Shown: positions 51,123 through 56,238 of the stretch, one piece after another | Numbering within the stretch: the first letter of the stretch is position 1 | Layout of the letters: the number at the start of each line of letters is the position of its first letter | Origin: Sulfurimonas sp. SAG-AH-194-I05 | GTDB taxonomy: Bacteria; Campylobacterota; Campylobacteria; Campylobacterales; Sulfurimonadaceae | Length of the DNA stretch: 64,000 nt | Assembly (NCBI RefSeq): GCF_029215955.1 | Contig: NZ_JAEMVA010000005.1 | Span: 1-64,000 of the forward strand | Direction of reading: 5' to 3' | Notes under the pieces: model-generated | Databases searched by the model: none | What the model was told of the DNA's origin: nothing | Seen by the model: the letters and a program-made list of their open reading frames with translations, nothing else | Translations under genes and position numbers: made by a program

Positions 51123-51584
51123 CTATCCAACAGCACCTATATTATAATTAGGTAATACTGTTGTGCTAAACTCATTATAATCTAGCACAGCGGGAATCTT
51201 AAATTCCATACTTGGTGCAATTTCTAATTTTTGAGTTTTTATTTCTGAACCCATTTTAACAAAACATAGCTTTCCCATCGCTTTGATAGGCTCATTTTTA
51301 TTAAAATAAAATGCATCTGTTGCAAAAAGTGGTATTTGTTTTAATATACTCAAAGATTTTAAAAATATATAGGAAACTTTAATTGCCATAAAGCTCCCTG
51401 GACCGTTTGCAAAAAAGAGATTTTCAACTATATACCTATTAAATATCTCTTTATAAAGAGTTGGTAAAATATCTGAACTTTTAAGTGTAGACTTTATCAC
51501 ATCTATACATTGATTATTTTCATATATTCCTATTTGAATAGGGGAACTAAGAGCTATAAGTAAAACATCTACTTTTTTAGACAT
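51123..51584 (-). CDS. tsaB: TsaB-like tRNA threonylcarbamoyladenosine factor
   Basis: About 153 residues from the ATG at 51584 ([15 protein letters not shown]), chosen for its 8-nt overlap (ATGTCTAA) with the lpxC stop. [15 protein letters not shown] and [14 protein letters not shown] match the ASKHA-like N-terminal half of TsaB, which works with TsaD and TsaE to make t6A on tRNAs. It is much shorter than E. coli TsaB (231), as in other Campylobacterota. Confidence 0.8.
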
Positions 51585-52461
51585 ATGCTTTTTCAAGTTC
51601 CATTGTTTTTTCGCCAACGAGTTCTATTACTTCAAAGTTTTCCGGATTTTTTAAAAGTTCTATTGTTAGCTTATGGTTTAAATCATGACTTCCAGCCATC
51701 GCTTCATAATTTCCTACAAAGTTCATGCCAATTAATGACATGTCACCAATCGCATCAAGGATTTTATGACGTACAAATTCATCACTAAAACGTAAACCTT
51801 CAGGGTTAAGAACTTTTTTTTCATCTAAAACAATAGCATTTTCTAAAGATCCACCAAGCGCTAAGCCTTTTGAACGTAGATATTGTACTTCATGTAAAAA
51901 TCCAAAGGTTCTTGCACGTGCAATTTCATTTTTATATGATTCTTTAGTAAATTCGAGAACATATTCTTGGTTCTTAATCACGGGGTGAGGAAATTTAATT
52001 TTAAAGTCATACTTTAAATCAGGAGAAGGTGAGAGCTTTACATACTTGTCGCCCTCTTGAACGATAATGTCTTTTTTAATCATCATTACTTTTTTTGGTG
52101 CATTTAACTCTTGTATACCCGCTTCATCTAATAACATACAAAAACTTGCACTACTACCATCCATAACAGGTACTTCATCAGCATCAACAATAACTTTAAG
52201 ATTATCAATTCCATAAGCATAAACAGCCGATAAGAGATGCTCTATTGTGGAAATCACATAGCCATCTTTCCCTATTACCGTAGCCATTTTAGTATTAACA
52301 ACATTTTGTGGTGATAAAGAAATAGCTACATCAACATCACTACGATAAAAAACTATACCGCTGTTATCTTCTAAGGGCTCTAACCTGAGTCTAACAGGTG
52401 AGCCTTTATGAAGCCCAATACCTACTAACTCAACAGCTTTCTTAATCGTAGTTTGATACAT
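51577..52461 (-). CDS. lpxC: UDP-3-O-acyl-N-acetylglucosamine deacetylase
   Basis: 294 residues. Zinc enzyme of the first committed step of lipid A synthesis. Signatures are [37 protein letters not shown] and GSHDLNHKL, with the zinc histidines and catalytic acids in place. Located between an M23 peptidase and tsaB. Confidence 0.97.
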
Positions 52462-52483: not shown

Positions 52484-53848
52484 TTAACTCTTGTTTATAA
52501 TCTCTTTTGCATTTTTAATAACATCAGTGATGTTAAGTTTAATCCATTTCGAGTCCATCCATTCTTGAGGGCGTACTTCAATCCCCTGAACTAAAACACC
52601 AAAGTGAAGATGGTCACCCATTACAGCACCTGTTTTACCAGTATTTGCTAAAACATTCTTCGCAGAAAAATAATCATCAACATTTACCTGTGTACTTGAA
52701 CAATGACCATAAAGTGTATATAATCCTAATCCATGGTCTATAATAGGCATATTACCATAGATACCATTATAATCAGAATAAACTACTTTTCCACCATTTT
52801 GAGGTTTAATCTCTGCCATTGCAACACTCGCTAAGTCAAGTCCCATGTGGTAGGCTTCACTTATTCTTTTTCCATTATGATTATAGTATCTATGGTCACC
52901 AAAATATGCAGCTACTTTTCCATTTCTAAGCGGATACATTTTATTGATTCTAAAGTCATCTATCATTTCATCAGAAACAACAGAAGTATATTTACGAATT
53001 AAATCTTCATTTTTTCCTCGAATTACTTCATTAATAATTTGGAATTGTTTAACGGGATCTGTTATTGCCTGTGTTTCAACAAACTCCTCAGCAAGTTGTG
53101 CTGTTTTAGTTTCAAGGTATCGTGATGATATCTTAAGAGTAGAAGTTCTATATTTTTTATTTTTTAAATATAAAGGAATATGTGTCTTTTTAATATTTCC
53201 AGCATAATCTTTTGCCACAATCACTGCTTTAAAGTCTTTATCTTTTAAAGACCAAGCGAGTAAAGAAATATAGTATCCATCTTTATAAAATGGTTGTGGT
53301 TTAAACTTCTTATTATTGTTAGACTCTATATAAATATCTTTTAAGTTATCATCCGTAGCTCTAAAAATAACAAGGGCTGAACCACCTTTGGATATTTTAT
53401 ATGAATTACTTAAAATACTTGTTTGTGGTCGTCTTTTGTCAATGATAAATTCAAACTCTTTTCTAACAAAGTTCCCTTTCATAAAATTCCAACTACTCGC
53501 GTCATTAATTTCTACAACGATTGTTAAGCTGTCTTCTTTTAATGAATAGGCACTTCGTGGAGGCTTAATATCTAAATGTAACGTTTTCATAGGTTCTATA
53601 AGTTGTTCATGTGTAATAACACTCTCACCATCAGCAGTTTTTAAAAGAATCTTATATGATTTTACACCACTTTCATCAGTTATATCAACTCCAACGGACT
53701 GCTTTAAATTCCAGTACCCATTTGTCTGCATTGTTATAACAGCTTTATCTCTTTCAAATGATGACGATTTATATACATATATAATCCCGGCTATGATTAA
53801 ACCAAATAGCAATAGTCCTAATGTCGATGTAGATTTACTTTTTCCCAA
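52484..53848 (-). CDS. Membrane-anchored M23 metallopeptidase
   Basis: 454 residues. One N-terminal membrane helix ([19 protein letters not shown]), a long periplasmic beta-rich region, and a C-terminal LytM domain with the zinc ligands YHMGLD and GDHLHFG. It cuts peptidoglycan cross-links; helical members of this phylum use such enzymes for cell curvature. The catalytic set is complete, so it is likely active. The start codon is TTG at 53848 with AAGGAA upstream; it lies 1 nt after the DHH-like gene. Confidence 0.93.
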
Positions 53849-53849
53849 G

Positions 53850-54737
53850 TTATAATTCCTTTTTTATTAATTTTAATATCTCTTTAGATACACTCTCTAA
53901 AGTATAAGTATTGTTCATTTCAAAACGAGTACCACTTTTATGCGTACAGCCAGCGTAGTTCGATACAACTACAAGGGCATCAAAATCTTGAGTACAAAGA
54001 AGAGACCCTTCAATACTTAAGTCTTCTTTTTCTTTAATGAGCACGGCAACTTTTACGCTTGGTAAAGATAGAATCTTTTTTAAAGCATATGCACAGTCAT
54101 GCGTAATTGCACCACTTTTTTTCATATCATCTGGCCTTACTAAAAAAAGTCCCACTTGGGCATTACAATAAAGCTCAAAGTTATTTAGCATGATGCCTTC
54201 AAGTCGCAAAGAAGCTAATGATCTATAGTTTCTAATAAACTGATTACACTTTTTATAATCAGCTCCATAAGCAATAAGCTCTTGAATCAAACTAAAAAAA
54301 TGCGCATCAACATTTTGGGAAGTAAAACCATCAGAGTTATCAAGTAAGCCTGCATATAATGCTGTCGCCATTTTTTTATTTATAGATACTTTTTGTTGCT
54401 TAAAAAAAGCATATACAACTTCAGTTGTATTCATAGAATCAATATTTATAAAGTCGCATCCTATAGTAATACCTGCGCGACTATCAGTAGCACAATTGAA
54501 TGCAATAGCAAAGTCTGCAGAAGATGGAAAGGAATTTCTAATCTTTTCAAACCAAGGTATAAATGCTAATTTTTTGTTAATCTCTTTCGTTACGCAAAAA
54601 AATGATACTTTTTTATGAAGTTGCAATAAATACGTATACATAGCACTAGCACTACCTAATGAGTCTGCATCAGGGTTTACATGGGTTATAACAACAATAT
54701 GTTGCGCACTATCAATTCTTTTTATTATATCATTCAT
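53850..54737 (-). CDS. DHH-family phosphoesterase with degenerate active site
   Basis: 295 residues with the fold of RecJ/NrnA-type DHH enzymes. Motif I is kept (ITHVNPDADSLGSA, D23 and D25). The DHH motif, normally IDHHxxN, is replaced by NIDSMNTTEV (D100 only), as if about a dozen residues were lost. The C-terminal GGGHxxA motif reads GCTHKSG. The family removes 5' nucleotides from nanoRNA or cleaves c-di-AMP; with these changes ordinary catalysis is unlikely. Sits between M23 peptidase and a small gene before flhB. Confidence 0.8.
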   Translation of the reverse strand: MNDIIKRIDSAQHIVVITHVNPDADSLGSASAMYTYLLQLHKKVSFFCVTKEINKKLAFIPWFEKIRNSFPSSADFAIAFNCATDSRAGITIGCDFINIDSMNTTEVVYAFFKQQKVSINKKMATALYAGLLDNSDGFTSQNVDAHFFSLIQELIAYGADYKKCNQFIRNYRSLASLRLEGIMLNNFELYCNAQVGLFLVRPDDMKKSGAITHDCAYALKKILSLPSVKVAVLIKEKEDLSIEGSLLCTQDFDALVVVSNYAGCTHKSGTRFEMNNTYTLESVSKEILKLIKKEL

Positions 54738-54774: not shown

Positions 54775-55173
54775 TTAGCAGAAATTCTCATTATCTTCAG
54801 GTTCTTTCTTTCTATTATATACTTTTTTTGTATTTTCAATAAAAGATCTTGTAAACATCGTTGTTAAATTTTCATCCACATGTTCATCATCATAATGGTA
54901 GTGGACAAAGCCAAATAAATCTTCTGGTGTAATCTCACTTTCTATCATCTTATCGATTGCTTCATTGCTTTTATCATCAAAAAAAAGACATGCAATTTCT
55001 TCACCTAAATAGGAATTTTTTTCATTTGAAACTTCAATATAACATTTCTGTTGATGTAGTAAGTCCTCAAGTTCATCCATTTTATCAGCTTCTTCCATCG
55101 ATGCAATTCCAGTTTTTAAAATGTTCATAATTAAGTTTTGCATCTCTTGTAATATTTTCGCCTGTTCACTCAT
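54775..55173 (-). CDS. Acidic helical protein of unknown function
   Basis: 132 residues, rich in Glu and Asp, without signal or membrane helix: LQEMQNLIMNILKTGIASM, KMDELEDLLHQQKCYIEVSN, FGFVHYHYDDEHVDENL. I do not recognise it. It lies 15 nt after flhB in the same operon, so a role with flagellar export is possible. Ends in cysteine. Confidence 0.7.
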   Translation of the reverse strand: MSEQAKILQEMQNLIMNILKTGIASMEEADKMDELEDLLHQQKCYIEVSNEKNSYLGEEIACLFFDDKSNEAIDKMIESEITPEDLFGFVHYHYDDEHVDENLTTMFTRSFIENTKKVYNRKKEPEDNENFC

Positions 55174-55188: not shown

Positions 55189-56238
55189 TTAATTTGCTTT
55201 ATTCATTTTATATACATACGCAAGAACTTCAGCAACTGCTTCAAAAAGTCCTTCTGGAATGGGTTTTTCTACATCAACTTCATCATACAATTTTCTAGCA
55301 AGAGGAGGATTCTGCACTATATGAACATTATTTTCCCTAGCAATTTTTTTAATTTGTTGTGCAATATTATCCATACCTTTGGCAAGAACCATTGGGGCTG
55401 CTTTTGATTCATCATATTTTAATGCTACTGCATAATGTGTTGGATTTGTTATAATCACATCAGCATTAGGAACTTCAGCCATCATTCTCTTACTCGACAT
55501 TTCCATCTGTTTTTGTCTAATTTTAGATTTTATAAGAGGATCCCCTTCCATATTTTTCATTTCATCTTTAATCTCTTGCTTGCTCATTTTTAAACCATCA
55601 AAGTATTGTTTTCTAACTATAACTAAGTCAATTAATGAAAATATAAAAATAATAAATAACATAACTAATGCAATAATAATCATCTTATCGACTAACCAAT
55701 CAAGTTGATTTGAAAGACTCATCATAGCTACAGTTGGTAATTCTTCAATAAAGAAAAAGAAAAATAAAAATCCAATTCCAAGTGTTATAAATGCTTTAAA
55801 AGTAATTTTCACACCTTCGATAACTTTTTTCATTGAAAAAAGATTTTTTATCCCTTTAATTGGATTAATTTTTTTAAAGTCAGGCATAATCGCTTTTGTA
55901 GTAAAAAGAAATCCAAATTGCGCAAGTCCAGCAACTACCCCGGCTACCGCTACAGCTATTGCTAAAGGTAAAATAATAAGTAAAAATTCTCTTGCTGTAA
56001 CAATTGCGATATCTATCATAAACGCTTTATCTAATGGTGATCCAATAAGAGAAAAATAATACTGTGCAAGAAGTATCATATGTTTTGACATAAAAGGAAA
56101 AAGTAACAAAACTGCTAAAATAGCTACAAAAAGAGTTATAACACCTGAAGCATCTTGAGACTTTGGTACATTACCTTCTTTTCTTGCATCTTCTATTTTC
56201 TTGTCGGTGGGGTCCTCGGTTTTTTCATCATCAGCCAT
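55189..56238 (-). CDS. flhB: Flagellar export apparatus protein FlhB
   Basis: 349 residues. The N-terminal part has four membrane helices (GVITLFVAILAVLLLFPFM and others). The cytoplasmic part carries the autocleavage site NPTH in IITNPTHYAVALKY and the C-terminal domain (VQNPPLARKLYDEVDVEKPIP). It switches export specificity together with FliK; the separate FlhX copy is at 10157. It follows nadC by 12 nt. Confidence 0.97.
   Translation of the reverse strand: MADDEKTEDPTDKKIEDARKEGNVPKSQDASGVITLFVAILAVLLLFPFMSKHMILLAQYYFSLIGSPLDKAFMIDIAIVTAREFLLIILPLAIAVAVAGVVAGLAQFGFLFTTKAIMPDFKKINPIKGIKNLFSMKKVIEGVKITFKAFITLGIGFLFFFFFIEELPTVAMMSLSNQLDWLVDKMIIIALVMLFIIFIFSLIDLVIVRKQYFDGLKMSKQEIKDEMKNMEGDPLIKSKIRQKQMEMSSKRMMAEVPNADVIITNPTHYAVALKYDESKAAPMVLAKGMDNIAQQIKKIARENNVHIVQNPPLARKLYDEVDVEKPIPEGLFEAVAEVLAYVYKMNKAN

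Follow-up and report, generated by a model that had tools for sequence, protein, structure and literature searches.

The window, a 64,000-nucleotide stretch of a Sulfurimonas contig, carries a gene for a protein with the two-domain fold of the NrnA-type DHH-DHHA1 phosphoesterases, directly upstream of an M23 peptidase gene of the Pgp6 type (Table 1). Its frame is open over 295 codons. We take the flanking genes, by their sequences, to be lpxC and flhB, and an arrangement that we would write as nadA-nadC-flhB-DHH-M23-lpxC, with every name but that of M23 presumed in the same way, recurs in the taxonomic order, often with gaps. M23 lies directly after the DHH gene in all 100 loci that we read, and an M23-frame start codon falls between -30 and +60 nt from the DHH stop in every one of them. 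The link to M23 suggested by the first-pass annotation is thus tight, while the link that it drew to flhB is weaker: 69 of the 100 loci showed flhB in the flanking sequence covered, which is short for some of them, and the M23-lpxC side is the more constant. The 132-aa protein encoded between flhB and the DHH gene has a homologue in merely 4 of the 100 loci (the window, L069, L107 and L108, the latter three all with a short form of the DHH gene described below), and was rejected on that count as a replacement for the DHH protein.

Table 1. Features of the DHH-M23 locus, in positions of the window.
Feature	Position	Strand	Basis
NrnA-type DHH-DHHA1 pseudoenzyme gene, 295 aa	53850..54737	(-)	Pfam DHH, AF2 and PDB fold matches
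Motif I HVNPDAD (H19, D23, D25), intact	54663..54683	(-)	alignment
Motif II metal Asp changed to Asn81 (IAFNCA)	54495..54497	(-)	alignment; equals D80N position of inactive TmPDE mutant 5O4Z (profile alignment)
D100/S101 junction of 17-residue in-frame deletion, both DHH His removed	54435..54440	(-)	alignment
Motif IV metal Asp changed to Asn134 (LLDNSD)	54336..54338	(-)	alignment; equals D154N position of TmPDE 5O4Z (profile alignment)
GCTHKSG replacing GGGHxxxAG (DHHA1 substrate loop)	53931..53951	(-)	alignment
AAGGA (Shine-Dalgarno-like) in last DHH codons, DHH TAA stop, likely M23 TTG start one base on	53846..53861	(-)	sequence
M23 peptidase, Pgp6 type	52484..53848	(-)	NF052529 628 bits (cut-off 600); N-terminal hydrophobic stretch by eye
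lpxC (presumed)	51577..52461	(-)	conserved neighbour
132-aa protein between flhB and DHH gene	54775..55173	(-)	no Pfam match
flhB (presumed)	55189..56238	(-)	conserved neighbour

The window protein scores 38.4 bits against Pfam DHH (cut-off 28.1), and the Pfam scan gave no sequence match to DHHA1; both domains are present in its predicted model. AlphaFold2, run with 79 relatives, returned a mean pLDDT of 94.0 and a pTM of 0.88. The best five PDB matches to this model are TmPDE chains, at TM 0.83-0.90 on the query (the highest, 0.90, with 5O25), and other DHH-DHHA1 structures were matched too. The top structural match is 5O4Z, the TmPDE D80N D154N mutant. The fold and motif I are shared with the characterized NrnA/DHH-DHHA1 enzymes (B. 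subtilis NrnA, T. maritima TM1595 PDE, Rv2837c and Borrelia DhhP), and the intact NrnA-type members of the order occupy the same locus as the window gene.

The window protein differs from these enzymes in lacking the DHH histidine pair, the motif II and IV aspartates and the GG of GGGH. Read against an intact relative (L003), our reference for the motif losses, its motif I is unchanged (HVNPDADS) and keeps the H..D.D of NrnA-type nanoRNases, and four of the nine catalytic columns are lost outright. The DHH site reads INID-SMN, and in the GCTHKSG that stands in place of the C-terminal GGGH the histidine is aligned as kept and the GG pair is gone. These observations agree with the first-pass annotation, which had reported an intact motif I, a lost DHH and an altered GGGH, except that the deletion at the DHH site spans 17 residues rather than about a dozen; the replacement of both the motif II and the motif IV aspartate by asparagine goes beyond what had been noticed there. 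In B. subtilis NrnA, metal M1 is held by H103, D26, D80 and D156 and M2 by D24 and H20, as assigned in PMC5593865, and by that assignment three of the four M1 ligands are gone from the window protein. A sequencing error at the deletion, which had been raised as a possible refutation, is very unlikely as a local cause, because four separate sites are altered and relatives in other genomes carry different changes at the same motifs. The NCBIfam NrnA equivalog scores the window protein at 50 bits (cut-off 350 bits), and does not discriminate here, since three intact family members also fall short (78-90 bits). Catalysis has almost certainly been lost in the window protein, which combines missing catalytic residues with a kept fold, the latter by prediction, as expected of a pseudoenzyme.

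The window protein belongs to a family in which such losses are widespread. An NrnA-type gene was found in 102 of 119 genomes, the window's own included, and was read in 100 of them, the weak matches in G035 and G072 being left out; the 100 loci comprise 67 from the genus (the window genome shares its genus code with 71 relatives, and locus L033 repeats the window locus) and 33 from other families. In all 33 homologues from other families the catalytic columns are intact (297/297 cells). Within the genus, 48 of 67 homologues are eroded, 7 of them near full length (class B, window included) and 41 short (class C; 214-229 aa, hereafter about 220 aa, with one cut further by a contig end). The other 19 are intact (class A), with L018 counted as intact only as far as its fragment goes. 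In class C the DHH strand is absent, as is the half of DHHA1 that bears GGGH, and motif I is deleted or degenerate. Internal stops in five class C matches proved to be the short forms' own stops, overrun by the matches by 3-12 nt past the frame end. The AlphaFold2 model of a short relative (L187, 225 aa) is as confident as that of the window protein (pLDDT 94.0, pTM 0.84) and again has TmPDE as its top PDB match, at a lower TM of 0.69-0.77, with TmPDE and NrnA structures matched.

Erosion extends beyond the genus. A reading of other family genera at 20 places among the matches listed, picked partly for their odd look, found intact members in nine genera (g35, g37, g38, g40, g44, g47, g48, g49 and g50) and eroded forms in G139, G140 (L184), G141 (L183), G174 and G274. 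A further named set of loci, 80 of 128 relatives, was chosen by KMATALYAG-like and YTYLLxLHKK-like peptide patterns, and conservation at the pattern residues within it is therefore partly by construction; our conservation counts rest instead on the read set of 67 genus and 33 outside loci. Two sets were drawn from the named loci, A2 (79 of the 80 plus the window, L173 being left out) and A3 (34 of the 80 plus the window). Eroded forms in the named genomes include L113, L134, L135, L151, L173 and L181, while L139 and L172 are of normal length with a single catalytic column altered. Named relatives at 52-55% identity to the window protein are mostly labelled Sulfurimonas. We conclude that the DHH-DHHA1 pseudoenzyme is real and has formed repeatedly.

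How often it formed was estimated from gene trees. On a family tree of 140 rows, built by a quick method with the motif columns removed, irreversible loss needs 13 events, a count that hangs partly on weak branches and comes with a long-branch warning for L197, L200 and L044. If only strongly supported branches of the same tree are counted, class A needs 5 changes and class B 6; L018, L059, L208 and 31 identical rows had been dropped from it, and L139 and L172 were scored as intact. Class B requires 5 changes in the DHH gene tree and 6 in an M23+FlhB tree, the latter likewise forced by starred branches. Our best estimate is about a dozen active-site losses, with five to six as a firm minimum. 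Several separate truncations to the short form were considered and set aside: the M23+FlhB tree gives 5 changes for class C, 3 of them forced, one origin is unrejected (AU p = 0.23), and class C forms one clade in the DHH gene tree (100/100), so the short form may have a single origin. L173:2501-3350, from a Faavne MAG and on the same contig as L199, has an eroded DHH loop (IDSN) and a kept C-terminal tail and is missing the GGGH segment; it reads as an intermediate between the long and the short forms, and in the 140-row tree this short C-terminus with its eroded loop still present falls outside the class C clade.

The gene has been kept, as the first-pass annotation supposed. In one form or another it is present in 212 of 228 family genomes and in 138 of the 139 with a completeness of 90% or more and a contamination of 5% or less, the exception being G130 (100% complete). 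The closest relative of the window protein is 56% identical, and selection after catalytic loss was gauged from other eroded relatives, by pairwise Nei-Gojobori dN/dS with codon bootstrap. Across 15 class C pairs and one class B pair, dN/dS ranges from 0.06 to 0.27 with every 95% bootstrap interval below 0.45 (class B pair, 0.25, 0.17-0.35), as expected of pseudoenzymes that remain under selection. Five class A pairs gave 0.11-0.15 and the eroded pairs mostly 0.12-0.27, and M23 gave 0.04-0.17 for the same pairs and lay below DHH in 23 of 24. Constraint on DHH is relaxed, given that its dN/dS somewhat exceeds that of intact pairs and that of M23 in 23 pairs; purifying selection on the eroded proteins is relaxed, yet far from absent.

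The relaxation bears mainly on the active site. With L018 and L059 dropped for lying at contig ends, and with 18 active forms as class A and 33 outgroup proteins, class B proteins keep 24 of 63 cells of the nine catalytic columns (38%) and class C proteins 56 of 360 (16%). The other columns invariant in class A are kept, inside the class C core, in 309 of 343 cells (90%) and 1436 of 1960 (73%), respectively, and in 385 of 483 and 1450 of 2760 when all such columns are taken and deleted parts counted. A function at the level of the protein is probable for the eroded forms. Two broken frames were seen in the survey: L208 (G127:C79:11976-12896), from a genome with a rated completeness of 100%, has intact catalytic motifs but is interrupted by a stop at codon 115 of its match, and in L173 the frame shifts near codon 34. 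An assembly error may account for either break.

A possible alternative source of conservation is the downstream start. The frame could be kept purely as a translational leader that brings ribosomes to a weak M23 TTG, with the protein itself decaying. In 64 of the 67 genus loci the M23-frame start codon closest to the DHH stop is TTG; in the genus these closest starts lie at -17 to +3 nt (7 of the 67 loci have an ATG candidate between -30 and +15). The outgroup loci have ATG or GTG there in 30 of 33 cases. Upstream of the M23 start, 65 of 67 genus and 28 of 33 outside loci carry a Shine-Dalgarno-like motif (4 nt or more; raw counts), which in the genus usually falls within the last DHH codons, and many of the short forms still end in a KE- or KD-type tail despite having lost the preceding half of DHHA1. 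The arrangement suggests translational coupling of DHH and M23, and since the last codons hold the Shine-Dalgarno-like motif and the stop sits at the M23 start, the DHH frame and its 3' end would have to stay intact. This would explain the protection of the frame and the 3' end, but not amino-acid constraint elsewhere: the short form evolves under purifying selection at the amino-acid level by dN/dS, residues far from its 3' end are kept at 80-100%, and its fold is predicted confidently. We consider it improbable that the gene serves as a leader and nothing more.

Less probable still is that the protein acts as a decoy or sensor, binding pGpG- or pAp-like nucleotides and leaving them uncleaved in the manner of TmPDE D80N D154N. 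The engineered Asp-to-Asn pair of that mutant (5O4Z, 5O7F) is the natural pair of the window protein, in which H19, D23 and D25 remain, the DHHA1 domain is present, and 5O4Z itself is the closest structure. However, DHH and GGGH are still present in the mutant, whose structures contain ligand according to their PDB titles, whereas in the window protein both DHH histidines and the glycine pair of GGGH are gone. Among the other eroded members the surviving catalytic residues differ from one protein to the next, and the 41 short genus members of about 220 aa have no DHH strand, no GGGH half and no sound motif I. Binding therefore cannot be a shared, conserved role and the nucleotide site is no common feature of the family, which goes against the first-pass suggestion of a nucleotide-binding protein; the window protein, taken alone, may retain some residual binding. 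That the protein remains an active enzyme whose catalytic residues have moved or become fewer is barely credible, even with motif I intact in the window and single-column changes in the normal-length L139 and L172, when four of nine catalytic columns are altered, among them three of the four M1 ligands by the assignment in PMC5593865. Overall, the earlier reading is supported in part: for the lost phosphoesterase active site, the kept gene and the link to M23, more weakly for flhB, and not, across the family, for nucleotide binding, with a regulatory role a mere candidate.

The catalytic role may have become dispensable through a second enzyme. The window genome encodes an NrnB-type protein at a separate DHH-DHHA1 locus (G000:C83:2-1033) with intact catalytic motifs, distinct from the window gene; its neighbour is presumably an FlhA-like protein. 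An NrnB-type gene occurs in 109 of 119 genomes. We checked its motifs in 30 chosen genomes, 28 of them with an eroded or shortened NrnA-type copy, and found them intact in 29 of 29 readable ones (27 with such a copy, the window's own, and the intact control G032), the G139 copy being an unreadable contig-end scrap. Outside the family, all 13 genomes without an NrnA-type gene have NrnB. The G000:C83 protein resembles NrnB clade B, which PMC12709177 describes as restricted to Campylobacterota, with active members in H. pylori and C. jejuni. A putative clade B member would be a close parallel within the same genomes, a DHH-DHHA1 protein too, but one encoded by a separate gene with its catalytic motifs intact. 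Other candidate replacements were rejected: Orn had no match over the cut-off in 119 genomes (18 weak partial matches lay below it), and a further intact DHH-DHHA1 protein of 308 aa (G000:C23:3024-3947) is present in 28 of 119 genomes, out of step with erosion when compared by eye. A c-di-AMP phosphodiesterase role was likewise discarded, as a diadenylate cyclase (PF02457) went unmatched in 119 of 119 relatives; for this reason the c-di-AMP hydrolysis assay proposed in the first-pass annotation is unlikely to be informative.

Evidence for an older, non-catalytic role comes from residues outside the active site. Some residues do not vary among active Sulfurimonas members yet are rare elsewhere: their columns are retained in 11% of outgroup cells, compared with 87% in class B and 64% in class C. 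They include L38, H41, W62, N120, K122 and T125, and S45 and M123 behave alike; Y34, K43 and V44 are no more than enriched, reaching 48-58% outside, where K42 is frequent too (85%). Most of these lineage-specific residues recur in intact and eroded members of the other family genera, where H41 and S45 vary. Because intact and eroded members alike carry most of them, the family-specific constraint outside the active site predates the losses, and L38, S45, W62, N120, K122, M123 and T125 would mark a second function. In the AlphaFold2 model the stretch 41-45 enters predicted strand 2 (43-47), behind helix 24-39. Cdc45, a eukaryotic replication protein related to the RecJ-type DHH nucleases, does not seem to have retained nuclease activity and plays a structural part; the exposed beta2 edge of its DHH domain, together with the flanking helices, is described as contacting Psf1 (both points from PMC4873980). 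The likeness lies in an inactive DHH fold and in the position of H41-S45 before and in strand 2, comparable to the Cdc45 beta2 edge as described there, and by this analogy the H41-S45 stretch may form a docking face. Cdc45 differs in belonging to the RecJ branch, in its larger size and in acting in DNA replication, and it is absent among the 50 fold matches listed.

Our main reading, to which we give a probability of roughly 0.7, is that the window protein is a pseudoenzyme whose catalysis was redundant and which is kept for a non-catalytic role older than the losses. The protein would be an NrnA-type DHH-DHHA1 fold without the metal site and substrate loop needed for hydrolysis. The intact Sulfurimonadaceae form would already have borne the family-specific residues, and hydrolysis of very short RNA would be covered by NrnB, whose presence and motifs are seen and whose sufficiency is presumed. 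We propose that the active site was therefore lost several times, out of NrnB cover and an earlier second function, and that purifying selection preserves the remainder for a role that is non-catalytic and probably lies in protein docking. A second, local constraint would act where the 3' end carries the Shine-Dalgarno-like motif of M23 and the stop beside its likely TTG start, if the coupling is real.

Judged by synteny, the most likely partner process would be the envelope work of the adjacent M23/Pgp6 and LpxC genes, and the helical cell shape of C. jejuni depends in part on Pgp6 (PMC12454360); an envelope partner is nonetheless doubtful. Hardly firmer is a fuller scenario that we put forward tentatively, in which a second, non-catalytic job came first, about a dozen independent active-site losses followed, and a stable 220-aa pseudoenzyme now docks by its beta2 edge onto an envelope or flagellar partner encoded next door. 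If true, bacteria would have a counterpart of Cdc45 of which the intact, half-eroded and minimal forms all still exist. Pseudoenzymes are mostly met as finished products, and here intact, partly eroded and minimal forms share one locus with the losses repeated; as all forms coexist in one family, the order of events, second job and then catalytic loss, is testable. In the open-licence literature we found no report joining NrnA or DHH with Sulfurimonas and none joining a DHH phosphoesterase with a pseudoenzyme (the latter word is absent among the matches listed), and, judged by title, none of the NrnA/Campylobacterota reports concerns the NrnA-type gene.

The survey also touches on how nanoRNA turnover is divided among Campylobacterota. 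Neither an NrnB nor an NrnA-type gene was seen in G058, a MAG of the genus that is 88% complete. Outside the family, six genomes that are 90-100% complete (G083, G086, G089, G100, G103 and G117) have an intact NrnA-type gene and no NrnB match at E 0.001; they come from few families and were not used as support. Among genomes from the order's other families, 34 of 47 have an NrnA-type homologue, intact in the 33 that were read. A 2025 paper that had informally surveyed a few genomes put forward, as speculation, that Campylobacterota have NrnB as their sole enzyme of this kind (PMC12709177). The six genomes with an intact NrnA-type gene and no NrnB match do not fit that suggestion.
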